40,144 bases of DNA from Acidobacteriaceae bacterium. Its GTDB lineage: Bacteria; Acidobacteriota; Terriglobia; Terriglobales; Acidobacteriaceae. Positions within the stretch are counted from its first letter, which is position 1; every line of letters begins with the position of its first letter. A program made the position numbers and the translations under genes. Location: positions 13,804 through 53,947 of the forward strand of contig PLJN01000033.1 in assembly GCA_003140235.1 (NCBI GenBank). The letters run 5' to 3'. Under the pieces are notes generated by a model, which was given only the letters and a program-made list of their open reading frames with translations, did not search any database and was not told where the DNA came from. Positions 5,059 to 22,499 of the stretch are shown piece after piece.

Positions 5059-7497
5059 ATGCCCGACAAAGAATTCCAAAGAGAGCTTCAATCCGCGCAG
5101 GTGGAATGTGACCGTTTGCGCGAGGAAAACAACCGCCTGCGGAAGCTTCTGACGGAGCACGGTATCCCGATTCCCGCGATCCAAGCTCAGGGACCTACGC
5201 TGGTTCAAAGCGTGGGGCCAGCAATCGATGCTGTCAGTCATGCTTCCGACTCCAAGGCCAAAATTGCCCTCTTTAGAAGCCTTTTCCGTGGCCGGGAAGA
5301 TGTCTATGCGGTCCGCTGGGAAAACCCTGATGGCCGGGCCGGATACATGCCAAAGGCAGATCGCGATTGGAAGGCTTACTATGCAAGCAAACCCGAAGAC
5401 CGCAAGAAAGTCGACCGTAAAACACGGACCTTTCATCCTCTAACGGACGAGGCGGTTCGCCAGCATTTGGCGGGTGAGCTTACGGTCGGCGCGTACCCAC
5501 TGCTGCCTGATGAGACATGCTGGTTTCTTGCGGTCGATTTTGACAAGAAGACATGGCAAGACGATGCCGCCGCCTTTCTCGCTACTTGCCAGGAACTGAA
5601 CGTGCCCGCTGCATTAGAGCGTTCGCGGTCCGGCAATGGCGGTCATGTTTGGATCTTCTTTGATCGGGCAATACCTGCGGTAACAGCACGAAAGCTGGGA
5701 TGCGCCATTCTTACCCGAACCATGGAGCGCCGGCATCAAGTTGGACTTGACTCCTACGATAGATTTTTCCCGAATCAGGACACCATGCCGAAAGGAGGTT
5801 TCGGCAATCTTATTGCGCTGCCGTTGCAAAAGACGCCGCGCCAGTCGGGCAACAGCGTGTTCATAGATTCCGGCTTTCGGCCATATGCAGATCAATGGCA
5901 GTTCCTCACGATGATTCAACGCATGTCTGCTTATGCTGCTGAAGCACTTGTTGTGCAGGCGCAACGGGCAGGTGATTTGATAGGAGTAAGAATCAGCATT
6001 TCCGACGACGAAAACGACCAAGACCCCTGGACTTTGCCGCCCTCACGCAAGCGGCTAGAGCGGCCCATCAAAGAGCCGCTCCCGGAAAGAGTTCAACTTG
6101 TTCGGGCGAATCTTCTCTATGTGGAGAAGAAGGACCTGCCTTCCGCGATGCAAAATCGGTTGCTTCGCCTCGCGGCGTTTCAAAACCCTGAATTTTACAA
6201 AGCTCAAGCGATGCGCCTTTCAACTTTTGACAAGCCGCGCGTGATAGCCTGCGGAGAAGACCTCGCGAATCACATTGCCTTGCCTCGCGGGTGTTTCTCG
6301 GATCTGCTGGCCTTGTTGGAAGCGCACCGAATTAGGCCGCTGATTCAGGATGAACGTTTCGCAGGTAACCCGATCGACGTGGACTTCCATGGTCAGCTTC
6401 GACCGCTCCAAGAGGAAGCTGTTGCAAACATCAATGTTCACGATGAAGGAATCTTGTGCGCTCCGACGGCCTTCGGAAAGACAGCCGTTGCTGCATGGCT
6501 TATCGCCGCACGCAAAGTGAATTCCTTAGTTTTGGTGCACCGCCAGCAGCTAATGGACCAGTGGCGTGCACGGCTGGCAATGTTTCTGCAGCTTCCCGTC
6601 AAATCAATTGGGGAAATCGGTGGCGGAAAGACAAACCGAACAGGCTGTGTGGATGTCGCAGTCATTCAAAGTTTGCATAGGAAAGAAACCGTCAAAGACT
6701 TTGTGGGAGAGTACGGCCAAGTCATTGTGGATGAATGCCATCATATTTCCGCTTTCACATTCGAGCAGGTAATGAGGCAAGTGAAGGCCAGGTATGTTGT
6801 GGGCCTGACCGCAACTCCCACACGGAAGGACGGCCATCATCCCATTATCTACATGCAGTGTGGCCCAATCCGATTCAATCTCAGCGCCCGCAAGATGACG
6901 GAAATGACTCCGTTTGAACACAGGGTAATTCCTCGTGTGACGGAGTTCCAGATGCCACCGGAGACTTCGGATGTAACGATCCAGGAGATATACGCGGCCC
7001 TCGTCGATGACCGCTCTCGTAATGAGCTGATCACCGCTGACCTGCTTCGTGCCTTGGAGGCCGGGCGATCTCCACTGCTTTTGACGGCACGAACCGACCA
7101 CCTGAGGCATTTTGCAGAGCAACTTGCTTCCGTGGTAAAAAACTTGTTTGTCCTAAAAGGCGGCATGAGCAAGAAGCAACGCCAGAGCACAGCCGGCGCT
7201 CTGGCCGCTGTACCCTTGGGAGAGCAGCGGGTTATTCTTGCGACCGGCAGCTATATCGGCGAGGGATTTGACGACGCCAGGCTGGATACTCTTTTTCTCG
7301 CTATGCCAATTTCTTGGAAAGGAACTCTCCAGCAATATGTCGGTCGGCTGCATCGTTTGCATGACAACAAGCGTGTTCTTCAAGTCTACGACTATGTGGA
7401 TTCCTACGTTCCGATGCTGGCGCGGATGTACGAGCGACGGCTGAAAGGATATGCCGCCATCGGCTACACCGTGCAGCACCGAGAGGATTCCTTTTAA
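5059..7497 (+). CDS. TOTE conflict-system primase-helicase
   Basis: Protein of 812 aa. Residues 5-33 form a leucine/arginine coiled coil. Residues about 75-300 match the archaeo-eukaryotic primase domain of TOTE conflict systems: LAVDFD with acidic residues at 159-162, SRSGNGGHVWIFF (189-201) and LIALPLQ (251-257). Residues about 440-800 are a superfamily 2 helicase: Walker A APTAFGKT (468-475), DECHH (558-562), TATPTR (584-589) and motif VI QYVGRLHR (759-766). All key motifs look intact. Such proteins are thought to make or extend nucleic-acid primers and remodel duplexes in defence against mobile DNA; the action here is inferred from the family. It starts 10 nt after the nucleotidyltransferase and is followed by two same-strand genes. 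No nuclease domain is fused to it. Confidence 0.85.
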   Translation: MPDKEFQRELQSAQVECDRLREENNRLRKLLTEHGIPIPAIQAQGPTLVQSVGPAIDAVSHASDSKAKIALFRSLFRGREDVYAVRWENPDGRAGYMPKADRDWKAYYASKPEDRKKVDRKTRTFHPLTDEAVRQHLAGELTVGAYPLLPDETCWFLAVDFDKKTWQDDAAAFLATCQELNVPAALERSRSGNGGHVWIFFDRAIPAVTARKLGCAILTRTMERRHQVGLDSYDRFFPNQDTMPKGGFGNLIALPLQKTPRQSGNSVFIDSGFRPYADQWQFLTMIQRMSAYAAEALVVQAQRAGDLIGVRISISDDENDQDPWTLPPSRKRLERPIKEPLPERVQLVRANLLYVEKKDLPSAMQNRLLRLAAFQNPEFYKAQAMRLSTFDKPRVIACGEDLANHIALPRGCFSDLLALLEAHRIRPLIQDERFAGNPIDVDFHGQLRPLQEEAVANINVHDEGILCAPTAFGKTAVAAWLIAARKVNSLVLVHRQQLMDQWRARLAMFLQLPVKSIGEIGGGKTNRTGCVDVAVIQSLHRKETVKDFVGEYGQVIVDECHHISAFTFEQVMRQVKARYVVGLTATPTRKDGHHPIIYMQCGPIRFNLSARKMTEMTPFEHRVIPRVTEFQMPPETSDVTIQEIYAALVDDRSRNELITADLLRALEAGRSPLLLTARTDHLRHFAEQLASVVKNLFVLKGGMSKKQRQSTAGALAAVPLGEQRVILATGSYIGEGFDDARLDTLFLAMPISWKGTLQQYVGRLHRLHDNKRVLQVYDYVDSYVPMLARMYERRLKGYAAIGYTVQHREDSF

Positions 7498-7588
7498 ATT
7501 GGAACTTGTGACGTGATTTAGGGTGTGAGGTTCGGATGCTGATGAGCCAGCGCCCGCGATTGAACGCCGCTATTGTGAATGGAGGAGT

Positions 7589-7981
7589 ATGACGAAACAG
7601 AACGATAAGCTTGTCGTGGTCCACATGGACGTGCGGAAATTGAAACCAGAACCAGACATAAATCTTCCTGCCGTTGGCCAGGCAAAATTAAAGAGATTGA
7701 TTGAGGAAGCAGTGGTGGATGCCTACAATGAGCAGGAGCAAACCGTAGGTTTCCTGACCATGATTCAGGAGCACTTGGCTTTGCCTTTCTCAGCAAATGT
7801 TCTTGGCGTTGAGGTTGTCGTGGAGAAGATTGACATGACGGGCGATGGCCAGATCGTGGCGGTGTGCCGCCGCGACAAAATTAGGCAAAGGATCGGAATC
7901 CTCGATCTGCCTTTGCCGGTGCCTGCGCCAGCCGGAGCAGAATGGATCACAGCGTATCACCACTGGCGCAAGGGATTTTAG
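7589..7981 (+). CDS. CcbP-like calcium-binding family protein
   Basis: Small soluble protein of 130 aa. Its centre and end carry the segments of the CcbP-type calcium-binding family as I remember it: LPFSANVLGVEVVVEKID, IVAVCRRDKIRQRIGILDLP, and APAGAEWITAYHHWRKG at the C-terminus. The founding member binds calcium in cyanobacteria; many relatives are untested. The start ATG 7589 follows GGAGGAG at 7580-7585. The next gene begins with GTG directly after its stop codon, so the two form a tight operon. It lies 91 nt after the TOTE gene. Whether it works with the primase-helicase is unknown. Confidence 0.65.
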   Translation: MTKQNDKLVVVHMDVRKLKPEPDINLPAVGQAKLKRLIEEAVVDAYNEQEQTVGFLTMIQEHLALPFSANVLGVEVVVEKIDMTGDGQIVAVCRRDKIRQRIGILDLPLPVPAPAGAEWITAYHHWRKGF

Positions 7982-9124
7982 GTGAGCGAATACCAGTATT
8001 ACGATTTCCGGGCGATAGACCGGGCACTGACGAAGGCTGAGATGGCTGAACTACGTTCCATCTCTACTCGCGCCGAGATTACTTCGACGACCTTCACGAA
8101 CCACTACGAGTGGGGAGACCTTAAAGCTGACCCGCTCAAACTTCTGGAGAAGTACTTTGACGCTTTCCTTTACGTTGCGAACTGGGGGACGCGAGAGTTT
8201 TATCTTCGCCTTCCCCATGAGTTGGGTAACTACAAAGTGCTCAGAGCCATGCTCCCCGGCGAGGCCGCGCAAGTACGAAAAGCTGGAAGACACTTGATTG
8301 TGGGATTTGAGAGCGAGTCGGACCAAGACGACGGAGACGATGGCACCTCTTGGATAGGCTCACTGTTGTCTCTGCGGACGGATTTGTTGCGCGGCGACCT
8401 CCGCTGCCTTTATCTCGGATGGCTCCTTTGCGCTCAGCATGAAGAGCTTGCCGAAGGCGAATTGGAGCCTTCCGTGCCTGCTGGCTTGCGCGAATTGTCC
8501 GCTCCACTCCATTCGCTGATAGAGTTTCTTGGAATCGACGAAGATCTTGTTGAGGTCGCCGCACTGACTTCAGCGCCGCTCAGCGCCGGCCCGAGCCGAA
8601 AAGAACTGGATGCCTGGGTTCGGAGCCTGCCCGAAAAGGAGAAGAATGATCTGCTCTTAACCGCAGCGTCAGAGCCGGGTGAACGCTGGAAAACCGAACT
8701 TCTGCGGCGCTTTCAGCAGCAAACCACACCGCGCGTCTCATCAGAGGCTGTCGCGATTCAGCGGCGCACAGCTGCAGACCTGCTGGAGGCCGCCCATGCT
8801 CGTACAGAAGAGAGGACCAAACGGGTAGAAGCACAACGTGCGGCGGAGGCGACCAGACGTAAGGCAGAGGAGGAGGCAAACCGTGCGCGGTATCTGGACC
8901 AACTTGGAAAGCGCGAAGGCGAGACTTGGAATCAAGTTGCCGCGCAGATCTTGAAGCGACCGCCCAATGAATACAATAGAGCTGTCACTCTAATAACTGA
9001 CCTGCGCGATCTCGCATTACGACAAGGGCGCGTCGCTGCATTCCAGTCGGTACTGGAGGAACTTCGCCGAAAGCATGCGGCAAAGGGAAGTTTTCTACGC
9101 CGCTTGGAGAAGGCAAAGTTGTAG
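7982..9124 (+). CDS. Conserved protein of unknown function with C-terminal coiled coil
   Basis: Protein of 380 aa starting with GTG immediately after the stop of the CcbP-like gene. The N-terminus (SEYQYYDFRAIDRALTKAEM, then NHYEWGDLKADP and FLYVANWGTREFYLRLP) is a pattern I remember from a widespread uncharacterised bacterial family, but no function is known to me. The middle has an acidic stretch (residues about 110-122) followed by a leucine-rich segment. Residues about 260-310 form a charged coiled coil rich in R, E and A, followed by a helical tail. No membrane segments or signal peptide are seen. It closes the plus-strand cluster that starts at 3825. Confidence 0.75.
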   Translation: MSEYQYYDFRAIDRALTKAEMAELRSISTRAEITSTTFTNHYEWGDLKADPLKLLEKYFDAFLYVANWGTREFYLRLPHELGNYKVLRAMLPGEAAQVRKAGRHLIVGFESESDQDDGDDGTSWIGSLLSLRTDLLRGDLRCLYLGWLLCAQHEELAEGELEPSVPAGLRELSAPLHSLIEFLGIDEDLVEVAALTSAPLSAGPSRKELDAWVRSLPEKEKNDLLLTAASEPGERWKTELLRRFQQQTTPRVSSEAVAIQRRTAADLLEAAHARTEERTKRVEAQRAAEATRRKAEEEANRARYLDQLGKREGETWNQVAAQILKRPPNEYNRAVTLITDLRDLALRQGRVAAFQSVLEELRRKHAAKGSFLRRLEKAKL

Positions 9125-17490: not shown

Positions 17491-18426
17491 CTACTTTTTC
17501 TCTGCCGGCTGAACTTCAACAAACTGCCAGCCGAACCGTCCTTTAATGCACAGATTTCCGTGGGTAACGGAGTTATCCAGCGGCGAAGTCACGCGGACGA
17601 TCTTATCGTCCTGCGCGTGGATGGTGAGGTCGCAGCCCACGCCGCAGTAGGGGCAAATGGTGTCGGTGCGCGTCTGGCGGGACTCATCCCAGGTTCCGGC
17701 CTGGCGCATGTCGTATTCGCTCTTGAACATCAACGCGCCGGTGGGGCACACGCCGATGCAGTTTCCACAATAGACACAAGCTGAGTCCGGCAACGGGACA
17801 TCGAATTCCGTGGCAATGTGTGCGGTGAAGCCGCGGCCAGCCACGGCGATGGCGAAAGTGTTCTGCGCGTCAATGCCGCAGGCTTCCACGCATTTGTAGC
17901 AAAGGATGCACTTGGAATAATCGCGGACGTAAAGATCGTTATCGATTTTCACTGGCTGCGCCACCGTGGCGTTGTCTTTACCGAAACGTTCGGGATGCGC
18001 ATCATAACGTTCCATATATTCCGGGAACGCCGGTGCCGTGGAAACGTCAACAGAAGAAGCCAGGAACTCCAGCACCAGTTTGCGGCTTAAGCGTACGCGC
18101 TCGGAATCGGTTTTCACGGACATGCCCGGTTCCACTTTGCGCGAGCAAGCCGGGACCAGCGTGCGGGCTCCTTCGAGCTCCACCACGCACACGCGGCAAA
18201 CATTGACTGGTGTAAGGGTTTCAAGAAAACAGAGAGTGGGAGTTTCAATACCCAATTTACGCGCGGCGTCCAAAATGGTTGCGCCTTCAGGAACGGAAAC
18301 AGCTTTCCCGTCAACCTGGATCTCGATTTCACGCAACCTGGCCGACTCCGGGGCGTGGGGTACGGGTCCACGAGGAATTGGGACCAATGCTGTTGGCGCT
18401 GCTGCGGATTCTGCTGGCTTACTCAT
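17491..18426 (-). CDS. Formate dehydrogenase Fe-S subunit (N-terminal domains of the FdsA/FdhA type)
   Basis: Protein of 311 aa carrying four predicted clusters. A plant-type 2Fe-2S domain uses C66, C77, C80 and C94. Two ferredoxin-type 4Fe-4S clusters use C173/C176/C179/C183 and C217/C220/C223/C227. A molybdopterin-oxidoreductase Fe4S4 domain uses C258, C261, C265 and C293 (CPYCGVGC, then LCIKGRFGW). In FdsA-type enzymes these domains form the N-terminus of the ~950-aa Mo subunit. Here the protein ends right after GRFGWQFV, exactly where the Mo domain would begin. That Mo domain is encoded separately at the start of this operon. ATG 18426 overlaps the preceding stop by ATGA and follows GGAG. 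It should pass electrons from the Mo site to the NuoF-like subunit. Confidence 0.85.
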   Translation of the reverse strand: MSKPAESAAAPTALVPIPRGPVPHAPESARLREIEIQVDGKAVSVPEGATILDAARKLGIETPTLCFLETLTPVNVCRVCVVELEGARTLVPACSRKVEPGMSVKTDSERVRLSRKLVLEFLASSVDVSTAPAFPEYMERYDAHPERFGKDNATVAQPVKIDNDLYVRDYSKCILCYKCVEACGIDAQNTFAIAVAGRGFTAHIATEFDVPLPDSACVYCGNCIGVCPTGALMFKSEYDMRQAGTWDESRQTRTDTICPYCGVGCDLTIHAQDDKIVRVTSPLDNSVTHGNLCIKGRFGWQFVEVQPAEKK

Positions 18427-20318
18427 GAAAACAAACTCCATCGACTCAGCGCCGACTCAATCGCGGTGGACGCCGTTTGGCCCAGGCCGCAAATGGAAGC
18501 GTCGCGCATGGCTTGCCCCATCTGTCGCAAAAGGTTGATGTCCTCGGCGGCTGTTGCGAATGATTTGCCGGCGACCAGCCGCTGCAGCGCTTCTTCCTGA
18601 CGCACCACGCCAACGCGGCAGGGAACACATTGACCGCAAGTTTCATGGCGGAAGAATTCAGCAATGCGTAGCAAGATCTTCTTGAGGTCCACGCTGTCGT
18701 CGAACAACATCACCACTCCCGAGCCAAGCGTGGCGCCGATGGCCCGCGTGTCTTCGAACGTTAGCGGTGTATCCAGTTCTTTTGGAGAAACAAAAGCCCC
18801 GGCTGCGCCGCCCAGCAGGACTGCCTGCAGCCGCCCATTGCCGCCAACGCCGCCAGCCAGTTCAATCAGGCTGCGCAGTGTAACGCCCATCGCAATTTCG
18901 TAAACTCCGGGACGCACCACATGACCAGAAAGGCAAAACACGCGATAGCCTATGGAGTTTGCTGTCCCGGCTTTTGCGTAGGCAGCGCCGCCTTCGCGTA
19001 TGATCAGCGGAACGTTGACGAGTGTTTCCACGTTGTTTACCACTGTCGGCTGGCGGAAGAGCCCGGCTTGTGTGGGGAACGGAGGCTTGTTACGCGGTTC
19101 GCCACGGTAGCCTTCAATGGAATTGAACAGCGCGGTTTCTTCACCGCAGATATAAGCGCCTGCGCCGCGGCGCAACTCGATATCGAACTTCAATCCGCGG
19201 CCCAGCACGTTGTCGCCCAGCAAATCCGCGTGACGGGCCTCATGAATTGCGCGCTGCATGCGTTCCGCAGCCAGCGGATACTCGCCGCGCAGATAAATGT
19301 AGCCTTGTTCAGCGCCGGCCGCCAGCGCAGCAATCGTCATGCCCTCAAGAACGGCAAACGGATCTCCCTCCATCAAGACGCGGTCTTTGAATGTCCCCGG
19401 TTCAGATTCGTCAGCATTGCAGATCAAATAGTGTTTGCGGCCGGGGTTTTCCTTAAGCAGATGCCGCTGGACGTGAAGCGCTTCCCATTTCTTGGCGGCC
19501 GGAAAAGCTGCACCCCCGCGGCCTAGAAGTTTCGCTGCCGCGACCTCGCGGATGACTCCGTCAGGTCCCAGGTCCAACGCTTTGCGCAGGGCTTCATAAC
19601 CGCCCTGACGCTGATAGTCCTCAAGAGAAGGATTGCTGCTGCCAATCCGTCGCAACAAGTGCAAGTCCAAGTCCACCGATCCGGCTTGCGGAACAGAAAG
19701 CTGCGCGTTCAGCGAATCCGGTTGAGCTGGCATGCGATCTTCCACGGCGTCATTCAAGGCTGACACGATGTCGCCCACGCTTGCCGGAGCCAGCACACGT
19801 TCCCGGGGTGTTTCACCGGCCCGGGTAATCATCGCTGCCGGTGCGCGTTCACATAGCCCCAGGCACGCACTGCGTTGCCAGACTGCGCGACGTGCCGAGC
19901 AGGGCGTTCCCGCTGGACCTAGTTGCTTTTCTAATTCCTGGCACAGCCCTTCTGCGCCGCACGTGAGGCAGGCGATGTCGTCGCAAACGTGCGCGACCAC
20001 TGGCGGGCGGGCCGACAGCGAAAACATTCCGTAAAAAGAAGCCACACCGTAAACTTCAGCCGGCGGAATGTCCAGACGCAACCCCGTATAGTTCACCGCT
20101 CCCGGGGTGATCCAGCCAACGCGCGATTGAATTGCGTGCAACGCCGGCAGCAGACGGTCGCGCCGCAGATTGCGCTGCTGTCCGTCGCTCGCTGTGTGGC
20201 CATCCAGTTCAGGGCAGCGCTCGCCGCCGTCCCAGCCGGACTCCGGGTCTCCCAGCACGGAATCAACAGCCGCCCGTTCTGCGGGAGTCGGTTCGGCGCC
20301 GGTGAAATGAAGGTCCAT
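18423..20318 (-). CDS. NAD-reducing subunit of formate dehydrogenase, NuoE-NuoF fusion
   Basis: Protein of 631 aa in two parts. Residues about 45-190 are NuoE/HoxE-like, with the 2Fe-2S ligands C112, C117, C152 and C156. Residues about 210-625 are NuoF/HoxF-like: LLGRGGAAFPAAKKWEAL and NADESEPGTFKDR for FMN and NAD binding, YICGEETALFNSIEG, and the 4Fe-4S ligands C561, C564, C567 and C610 (ETCGQCVPC, ICGLGQ). It takes electrons from the Fe-S subunit and reduces NAD+, or runs in reverse. The fusion replaces the separate gamma and beta subunits (FdsG, FdsB). Its start ATG shares one base with the stop of the Mo subunit gene (TGATG), and its stop overlaps the next start by ATGA. Confidence 0.88.
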   Translation of the reverse strand: MDLHFTGAEPTPAERAAVDSVLGDPESGWDGGERCPELDGHTASDGQQRNLRRDRLLPALHAIQSRVGWITPGAVNYTGLRLDIPPAEVYGVASFYGMFSLSARPPVVAHVCDDIACLTCGAEGLCQELEKQLGPAGTPCSARRAVWQRSACLGLCERAPAAMITRAGETPRERVLAPASVGDIVSALNDAVEDRMPAQPDSLNAQLSVPQAGSVDLDLHLLRRIGSSNPSLEDYQRQGGYEALRKALDLGPDGVIREVAAAKLLGRGGAAFPAAKKWEALHVQRHLLKENPGRKHYLICNADESEPGTFKDRVLMEGDPFAVLEGMTIAALAAGAEQGYIYLRGEYPLAAERMQRAIHEARHADLLGDNVLGRGLKFDIELRRGAGAYICGEETALFNSIEGYRGEPRNKPPFPTQAGLFRQPTVVNNVETLVNVPLIIREGGAAYAKAGTANSIGYRVFCLSGHVVRPGVYEIAMGVTLRSLIELAGGVGGNGRLQAVLLGGAAGAFVSPKELDTPLTFEDTRAIGATLGSGVVMLFDDSVDLKKILLRIAEFFRHETCGQCVPCRVGVVRQEEALQRLVAGKSFATAAEDINLLRQMGQAMRDASICGLGQTASTAIESALSRWSLFS

Positions 20319-22231
20319 CAGTCTCCCTGGCTCGGCGTTAATTCTTTTTCGATTCGGATCGCTGTGGCCTTGAATTCCGAGGTACCCGATTTAGGATCGG
20401 ACGCGTCAATGGTCAAGTCGTTGGTGGCCACCTGATCATGAAAGTGCGTCGTCAGGAAGGCCAGGCCGCGGCGCAGCCCCGGATCAAAGCGGACAGGAGC
20501 GACCACCGAGCCTCGGCGCGAACTCACGCGGACTCTTTCTCCCTCTTCCAGCTTGTAGTGCGCTCCGTCTTCGGGAGACAGGTCCAGGGTCTCCGGCTGG
20601 CGCAGCGGAGATGCGTAAAGTCCGGTTTGAACATTGGTGTTGTAGGAATCGAGACGCCGTCCCGTTGTGAGCCGTATGGGGTATTGCTCATCGAGCTTAT
20701 CGACCGGCGGTACAAACTCAACCGGACTGAACGGCGCGCGCGGGCCAATCAAAGGCTCCTGCCAGAGCCGGCTGTGCAAAAACATTTCACCAGGATGGGA
20801 TTCGTCATAACACGGCCATTGAATTCCGCCCATTTCTTCCAGACGGGCGTAGCTCATGCCGCCGTGCATGGGACTTAGCGCGCGCATTTCGTCCCACAGC
20901 TTCTCCGAATCCAGCTTTCCCCAGTCGCGGCCCATGCGGCGGGCCAGTTCAAAAATGATTTCCATGTCGTCGCGCGTGCCGGCGGGCGGCGGCACGGCGC
21001 GGCGGACCCTCTGTACGCGGCGTTCGCTGGAAGTTACGGTGCCTTCGCTCTCGCACCATCCTGCCGCGGCGGGCAGCACTACGGTGGCCAGTTCGGCGGT
21101 CTTGGTATAAAACATGTCCTGCACCACCATAAACTCCAGGCCGCGTAATAGCTTAAGGCAGCGATGGCGGTCCGCTTCCGAATCCGCCGGGTTTTCGCCG
21201 AGGACGTACAGCGTAGTCAGCTCGCCGCGTTCCATGGCGTTGAACATATCGGTCAAATGCCAGCCGCGTTTGGGTGGGATGGCGACGCCCCACGCACGTT
21301 CAAACTTTCCGCGAAGTTCGTTGTTCTCCACGTGCTGAAATCCGGGCAAACGGTCCGGGATTGCGCCCATGTCTCCGCCGCCCTGGACATTATTCTGTCC
21401 GCGCAGAGGATTGACTCCGCTGCCGTAGCGACCCACGTGTCCGGTGAGCAAAGCCAGATTGATCAGCGACAAAACGTTGTCCACGGCGTTGTGATGTTCC
21501 GTGATGCCCAGCGTCCAGCAAATCTGCGCGCGTTCGGCGCGGGCATAGGCGTGGGCAGTCTCGCGAATCACTTGTGCGGGAACGCCGGTGTCACGCTCAG
21601 CACGCTCCAGCGTGTATTCCTCCACATGAGCTTTGTAGGCGTCGAATCCGCTGGTTGCGTTCTTAATAAACTTCTCATTGGCCAGGCCGGCGGCAATGAT
21701 CTCGCGGCCCATGGCGTTGGCGAGTGAGATGTCGGAGCCTACGTTGAGCCCCAGCCACACATCTCCCCACTGCGCGGAACTGGTGCGCCGCGGGTCCATC
21801 ACGTAGAGCTTGGCGCCGTGACGCACTCCTTTCAACAAATGATGAAAGAAGATAGGGTGCGTCTCCCGCGCGTTCGATCCCCACAGCAGGACCACGTCCG
21901 TGTCTTCGATTTCACGATAGGAGCTTGTACCGCCACCCGCACCGAATACTGTCGCCAGACCGACGACACTGGGCGCGTGTCAAGTACGGTTGCAACTATC
22001 GATGTTGTTCGTGCCAATCACCGTGCGAACGAATTTCTGTGCGGCATAATTCAGCTCATTGGTGGTCTTGGAGCAGCTGAACATGCCGAACGTGTTGGGC
22101 CCATGCTTCTTCACCTGTTGCTGGAAGGCCTGGGCCACCCGGTCCAGCGCTTCGTCCCAGGTTGCATGGCGATGCGCTCCGTTCTCGCGGATGAGTGGCT
22201 GGGTCAAGCGTCCTTTGGATGTTGTTTCCAT
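20318..22231 (-). CDS. fdhA: Selenocysteine-containing formate dehydrogenase catalytic subunit (Mo/bis-PGD domains)
   Basis: The gene spans an in-frame TGA at 21980-21982 that conventional reading takes as a stop. Read as selenocysteine, it gives a 637-aa protein with Sec84 in NRT-U-HAPSVVGLATVFGAGG, the active-site position of formate dehydrogenases. Sequence on both sides is clearly family-like: ATWDEALDRVAQAF, TNELNYAAQKFVR before, and VVLLWGSNARETHPIFF, GVNPLRGQNNVQG, VVLPAAAGWCESEGTVTSSERRVQ after. The C-terminal 110 residues are the MGD-binding domain. A bacterial SECIS hairpin lies just after the UGA. The protein lacks the usual N-terminal Fe4S4 domain, which is encoded by the third operon gene. 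ATG 22231 is chosen; TTG 22237 is an alternative. selA-D and fdhD are not in the window. Confidence 0.9.
21950..21982 (-). promoter_or_regulatory. SECIS element with UGA selenocysteine codon
   Basis: On the minus strand UGA (21982-21980) is followed by 11 nt (CACGCGCCCAG), then a hairpin: arm UGUCGUC (21968-21962), loop GGUCU (21961-21957), arm GGCGACA (21956-21950). Six pairs are Watson-Crick and one is U-G. The loop sequence and the 11-nt spacing agree with the E. coli fdhF element as I remember it, where SelB binds the GGUCU loop. Confidence 0.9.
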
Positions 22232-22499
22232 TTGCAATTGTCCGAAAATCTTCAGATACCTGATACGTAGGATATATCAAAAGGGGAGCACAATTGGGCG
22301 GCAAGACATCGCAACATGGGACGTTGGTACCCGCGGAAGCAACAATTCTCAACTGAACTTCACAAGACAAAACCCGGGTATCGGCAACAAGCGGAGTGCG
22401 GAAGGGTTCCTACAAGCGAGGGAAGTAAGAGCTTCAGATCTGATGAGCGTGGCAGCAACTGGACCACCGGAAATCGGACCTGGCTGGAAAGGAACTTTT
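22232..22499. other. Divergent intergenic region upstream of the formate dehydrogenase operon
   Basis: The 268 nt between the Mo subunit start and the small secreted protein should hold both promoters. I see no consensus sigma70 or sigma54 promoter, no operator palindrome and no recognised riboswitch. The reading frame of the Mo subunit is closed upstream by a TGA near 22278, so the gene cannot extend much further. Confidence 0.4.

Follow-up and report, generated by a model that had tools for sequence, protein, structure and literature searches.

A putative NAD-linked selenocysteine formate dehydrogenase with a catalytic chain split between two genes in an acidobacterial genome and its relatives

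The window analysed here, a stretch of 40,144 nucleotides from a soil-type Acidobacteriaceae bacterium (GenBank assembly GCA_003140235.1, contig PLJN01000033.1, positions 13,804 to 53,947), carries on its minus strand three overlapping genes, A, EF and FS, which very probably constitute one operon for a selenocysteine-containing molybdenum or tungsten formate dehydrogenase linked to nicotinamide adenine dinucleotide (NAD), with its catalytic chain divided into two polypeptides. The comparative evidence indicates that an in-frame UGA at codon 84 of A encodes selenocysteine (Sec), which the cell itself would presumably insert. The domain content of the genes likewise indicates that the metal-proximal [4Fe-4S] domain missing from A is supplied on the separately encoded FS. 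The position shared by Sec and cysteine (Cys), the hairpin that follows it, the sel genes of the genome, and the split together with its conservation can all be read directly from the sequences.

Subunit A (20318-22231, minus strand) is a molybdopterin catalytic subunit of the FdhA type, predicted to be 637 residues long with Sec at residue 84. From the ATG at 22231 to the TGA ending at 20318, its frame is interrupted by a stop only at codon 84 (21982-21980) before the terminal codon 638, and each of the remaining five frames across the same interval contains from 5 to 22 stops. Translated with genetic code table 11, the gene falls into two open reading frames of 85 residues (22237-21980) and 525 residues (21895-20318), just as the sequence-only reading that drew attention to this locus had foreseen for ordinary gene calling. 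When the TGA is read as Sec, the protein runs NNIDSCNRT-U-HAPSVVGLATVFGAGGG, and the Sec aligns with the Sec/Cys position of formate dehydrogenases (in this alignment the Sec of A was written as C and that of Escherichia coli as X). The Sec/Cys-His pair and the stretch RGQNNVQG, aligned with E. coli FDH-H, are invariant among 22 aligned relatives. Codon 84 was resolved in 104 of the 114 loci given, the window included: it is TGA in 70, TGC or TGT in 34, and nothing else. The assignment of TGA 21980-21982 to Sec in an FdhA-type active site was exact in its coordinates, and relatives without a residue at this position, which would have counted against it, did not appear. What is looked for in a bacterial selenoprotein was found: an in-frame UGA at a site occupied by Cys in homologues, a hairpin resembling a bacterial selenocysteine insertion sequence (bSECIS) directly after it, and selA, selB, selD and tRNA-Sec in the genome.

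The hairpin (21950-21968, minus strand), identified by folding and by comparison across loci, has a 7-bp stem and the loop GGUCU and begins 11 bases past the UGA, a spacing and a loop that the earlier reading had described correctly. As a single structure it is weak evidence for a bSECIS: a 46-nt fold has an energy of -19.7 kcal/mol (z = -2.0), and 7 of 200 shuffled sequences fold equally well. Across the loci, it goes with TGA, and is thus more than a product of chance. All seven stem pairs form in 52 of the 70 TGA-type sequences versus none of the 34 Cys-type ones, at least six in 68/70 versus 3/34, and four of the seven stem positions are paired in every TGA-type sequence. The loop GGUCU is present in 68 of 70 TGA-type versus 4 of 34 Cys-type sequences, and the loop glycine is encoded by GGT in the same proportions (68/70 and 4/34). 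The two types do not differ in overall folding energy (p = 0.63). The fold and its association with TGA bore out the proposal of a bSECIS, but Rfam gave no bSECIS match either in the whole window or in 20318-22240, for which it returned three matches, all far under their gathering scores.

The genome to which the window belongs has the machinery that the sequence-only reading had supposed, and its failure to appear would have told against Sec. It yielded a selB with 390 bits against a cut-off of 242, two genes each for selA and selD above their cut-offs, and a tRNA-Sec with anticodon TCA; one of the selD genes itself contains an in-frame TGA, in its active-site region (AAG-TGA-ASK). The selB and the first selA lie on contig C53, the first selD on C84. 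Contamination of the genome bin (3.45% listed) was considered as a source of the sel genes; a genome of the same genus (G257) also has selB, and the guanine plus cytosine (GC) content of C53 (0.58) resembles that of the window (0.56). The second selA (C176, GC 0.61) and the second selD (C157, GC 0.50) differ in GC from the window and may be paralogues or bin contamination. Among available genomes (25 of 36 Sec-type and 25 of 34 Cys-type were compared), selB scored above the cut-off in 21 of 25 Sec-type versus 4 of 25 Cys-type genomes (Fisher p = 2.6e-6). Similarly, it did so in 28 of 30 split-type Acidobacteriota versus 5 of 12 contrast genomes, these being 12 of the 15 listed genomes of the same family without an A match at 1e-90; the contrast genomes may have kept other selenoproteins.

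The earlier expectation of a single formate dehydrogenase gene held only in part. The TGA does join both open reading frames, but the 637-residue product is not a whole FdhA. It has the molybdopterin and dinucleotide-binding domains of TIGR01591 (PF00384 and PF01568, and no others), and its alignment with the Rhodobacter capsulatus FdsA chain (6TG9_A) covers residues 304-938. The N-terminal Fe4S4 domain, PF04879, which in TIGR01591 stands on the same chain as the molybdopterin domain, is missing from A and was found by domain search at residues 258-308 of FS, a protein of 316 residues and 16 Cys (17491-18441, minus strand). FS is HoxU/NuoG-like, with this FdhA-type domain at its C-terminus, and its residues 39-308 align with 6TG9_A 25-303; the chain break thus corresponds to the junction between residues 303 and 304 of FdsA. 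TIGR01591 is divided in the same way, model positions 1-50 matching FS (50.7 bits) and 49-672 matching A (646.7 bits). It follows that gene callers do cut A at the UGA, as had been said, but that the canonical start of the catalytic subunit is not the missed segment of A: it is the separate protein FS, outside the interval first considered.

Between the A and FS genes sits that of EF (18423-20318, minus strand; 631 residues), a fused NuoE-NuoF with a [2Fe-2S] thioredoxin-like domain, a 51K domain binding flavin mononucleotide (FMN) and NADH, an SLBB domain and an NADH_4Fe-4S domain (PF01257, PF01512, PF10589). EF supplies the NuoE/NuoF-like NADH module characteristic of FdsABG-type enzymes, and the single alpha chain of that type, with its Fe-S region and molybdenum domain, is here divided into FS and A. 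The A and EF genes overlap in TGATG and the EF and FS genes by 19 bases if FS starts at its first ATG, so coupled translation is likely. The Molybdop_Fe4S4 domain of FS (17518-17670, minus strand; C263, C266, C270, C298 and K300) was present in all 23 aligned FS sequences, in which all 16 Cys and Lys300 (in LC-x-KGRFG) are invariant. The Cys spacing is that of one predicted [2Fe-2S] and three predicted [4Fe-4S] motifs; FS has no Cys to match the Cys-rich segment around residues 119-131 of 6TG9_A.

The order A, EF, FS with its Fe4S4 domain is widely conserved. An A match at E <= 1e-90, mostly a more distant one, was found in 177 of 396 Acidobacteriota genomes, and the closest named relatives are Terriglobia/Acidobacteria records, in agreement with the acidobacterial type of genome proposed from the sequence. 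Twenty-nine relatives of A with 65-82% identity each have one TGA; for the thirtieth (G301), a partial match, the fetched locus has the TGA and an A in two pieces in different frames. In 27 of 31 loci (the window and these 30 relatives) FS with the Fe4S4 domain follows EF, and the four without a complete FS run into contig ends (L060, L062, L071, and L063 (first part of FS seen)). In each of ten Acidobacteriota comparators with 41-46% identity, hand-picked from lower in the list of A matches, the Fe4S4 stretch immediately precedes A, as in an ordinary FdhA; in one (L096) a NuoG-like part lies elsewhere in the locus. Upstream of A, the frame of A contained no Fe4S4-like Cys motif in any of 99 loci examined. 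The recurrence of this gene order across many genomes led us to reject an assembly artefact.

When named genomes were scanned with the FS alignment, at least 584 relatives came up, and the best 80 were kept. Of these 80 loci, 72 carry A-EF-FS; the Sec/Cys codon is TGA in 36 of them and Cys in 34, and the other 2 show just the 3' part of A. A is absent from the other eight, five of which are cut by contig ends; in the remaining three it is found elsewhere in the genome, although G397 has just a 98-residue piece of it, at the end of a contig. In Halopolyspora algeriensis (L168, L179) the A gene is separated from EF-FS by about 12 kb and is on the other strand, apparently of the same contig, a natural break-up of the operon; there the pieces must be separate polypeptides. 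The titles of split-type records name Acidobacteria, Actinobacteria, Chloroflexi, Gemmatimonadetes, Rokuibacteriota and others. Viral contigs scanned with A yielded no relative. In a plasmid collection FS matched 95 records, all at less than 60% identity, and none of the 15 such matches listed is annotated as a split system (6 fall under formate dehydrogenase features and 9 have no annotation).

A quick IQ-TREE phylogeny with 80 rows, comprising 54 of the 65 Sec-type, 16 of the 34 Cys-type and the 10 fused Acidobacteriota comparators, parted split from fused subunits by one branch with a support of 100 in the Shimodaira-Hasegawa-like approximate likelihood ratio test (SH-aLRT). The Cys-type rows form one group (91), nested among Sec-type rows and joined to one of them from Hyphomicrobiales (99). 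With the root on the split/fused branch, the tree is most simply explained by a single split and a single replacement of Sec by Cys in the actinomycetes. Other histories are possible: branch support is by SH-aLRT without a bootstrap, the few fused sequences all come from a single phylum, and some taxon labels of metagenome-assembled genomes may be wrong.

Several observations weigh against a split Sec formate dehydrogenase. A alone falls under the FdhA cut-off (646.7 versus 666.25 bits for TIGR01591), as does FS alone. The z-score of the window hairpin is modest, and codon preference contributes to the hairpin contrast, since the Cys-type set is entirely actinomycete. Four of the 25 Sec-type genomes (G411, G412, G413 and G418) are without selB above the cut-off, although G412 has sub-cut-off pieces, as are two of the 30 split-type Acidobacteriota (G357 and G277), and conversely four of the 25 Cys-type actinomycete genomes (G439, G426, G427 and G445) have it. 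Finally, the AlphaFold model of FS is poor (mean pLDDT, the predicted local distance difference test, 59.3).

Three other explanations can be set against these data. A genuine stop at the TGA, making the A gene a pseudogene or a pair of separate proteins, would accord with the two open reading frames of table 11 and with the z of only -2.0 for the window hairpin by itself. It is nevertheless barely credible: the same codon is TGA in 70 and Cys in 34 of 104 resolved loci with no other residue, the hairpin is conserved together with the TGA, and the genome encodes a complete Sec machinery. The pseudogene in particular was rejected because of the TGA/Cys pattern across loci. It is also quite improbable that the enzyme is a related molybdopterin oxidoreductase, such as an assimilatory nitrate reductase. 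Nitrate reductase models do match A (NF047855, 407.5 bits), but far under their cut-off (1100) and under FdhA (646.7 bits); the best solved relatives, by sequence and by fold, are formate dehydrogenases, and the U/C-His pair and RGQNNVQG are invariant in the 22 aligned relatives.

The somewhat less remote, but still unlikely, alternative is that FS and EF form an independent diaphorase or hydrogenase-type module, with A acting alone or with another Fe4S4 donor. FS indeed matches HoxU and the N-termini of [FeFe]-hydrogenase A subunits, and A does not adjoin EF-FS in three of the best 80 FS loci. In those three, however, A is elsewhere in the genome (as the 98-residue piece in G397), and the genes are adjacent in 72 of the 80 and in 27 of the 31 loci. 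Moreover, the Fe4S4 domain that A lacks is of the FdhA type and is found in FS in 23 of 23 aligned sequences.

If A, EF and FS do make up a split formate dehydrogenase, its operation can be sketched. The UGA would be decoded by SelB and tRNA-Sec by means of the hairpin directly after it, and formate would be oxidised at a molybdenum or tungsten atom ligated by Sec84 of A. Electrons would then cross the subunit interface from the metal site of A to the C-terminal [4Fe-4S] cluster of FS and pass through the other FS clusters (two more [4Fe-4S] and one [2Fe-2S]) to the [4Fe-4S] cluster and FMN of EF, and so to NAD+; the reverse direction, CO2 reduction, may also be possible. Should FS supply the proximal cluster, the first electron hop would take place between chains. 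This path is drawn by likeness to FdsABG, and we also infer the assembly of the complex, its cofactors, the formate substrate, the NAD acceptor and the direction. NAD is probably the acceptor, to judge from the Nuo51 and NADH_4Fe-4S domains of EF. A model of A built from 22 sequences had a mean pLDDT of 79.6, and in a fold search it was closest to E. coli FDH-H, with 6TG9_A at the same TMq of 0.86; the FS model was left out of this search because of its low mean pLDDT.

The closest known systems are of the FdsABG type (R. capsulatus FdsA, 6TG9/6TGA; Methylorubrum extorquens FDH1, 7VW6), which share the NuoE/NuoF-like NADH module, the NuoG-like Fe-S region and the FdhA-type molybdenum domain; together FS and A span 6TG9_A residues 25-938. 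Unlike these, the window system divides the catalytic chain at 303/304 between two genes whose order is permuted, joins NuoE and NuoF in one protein, lacks a Cys counterpart to the Cys-rich 6TG9_A stretch at about 119-131, and has Sec at the metal, where both FdsABG-type enzymes have Cys. E. coli FdhF and FdnG (1AA6, 1KQF) resemble A in the Sec-His active-site context, in the UGA with a hairpin directly downstream and in having the closest fold, but in them the proximal [4Fe-4S] domain is part of the catalytic chain and the partner proteins are different. HoxU and the N-termini of the A subunits of NADH-linked [FeFe] and [NiFe] hydrogenases (7T2R_A, 8A6T_A) resemble FS over about 205-270 residues, whereas FS has an FdhA-type Fe4S4 domain at its C-terminus and its gene accompanies one for a molybdopterin subunit.

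Sec in FdhA is in itself already known and ordinary. FdhA is described as the most widely distributed bacterial selenoprotein (PMC13188914), and a survey of 2006 lists Acidobacteria with 4 selenoproteins of 3 families (PMC1794560). In the full-text literature, from which subscription journals are mostly missing, we found no description of the split, permuted arrangement, and an existing account is thus possible. We consider it reasonably probable that these genes represent an undescribed class of NAD-linked formate dehydrogenase, spread over many bacterial groups, in which the Mo/Se site and the first acceptor cluster lie on different polypeptides, so that the first hop is inter-subunit, and in which an actinomycete branch exchanged Sec for Cys, in most cases losing selB. 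All the solved formate dehydrogenases compared here have the proximal [4Fe-4S] domain and its lysine on the catalytic chain. A natural split so widely kept would, if true, mean that this domain can be supplied in trans. It would provide a way to probe how cofactors are loaded and electrons transferred, as well as pairs of Sec and Cys enzymes on one scaffold. Since gene callers cut A at the UGA and, in the window, neither A nor FS by itself reaches the FdhA cut-off, formate use in such bacteria may be under-annotated.

Elsewhere in the same genome, contig C37 (about 6764-7879; L054, L056) carries a second formate dehydrogenase-like gene, of the FdnG kind, with an in-frame TGA (NQARV-TGA-HGPTVSSLG). 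On C151, at 8082-8166 (L015 1500-1584, minus strand), there is a tRNA called as Ile with anticodon TAT and a long variable arm. It folds with an 8-bp acceptor stem and a 4-bp T stem, scores 51 bits on the tRNA-Sec family (gathering score 47) and resembles the published allo-tRNAs.

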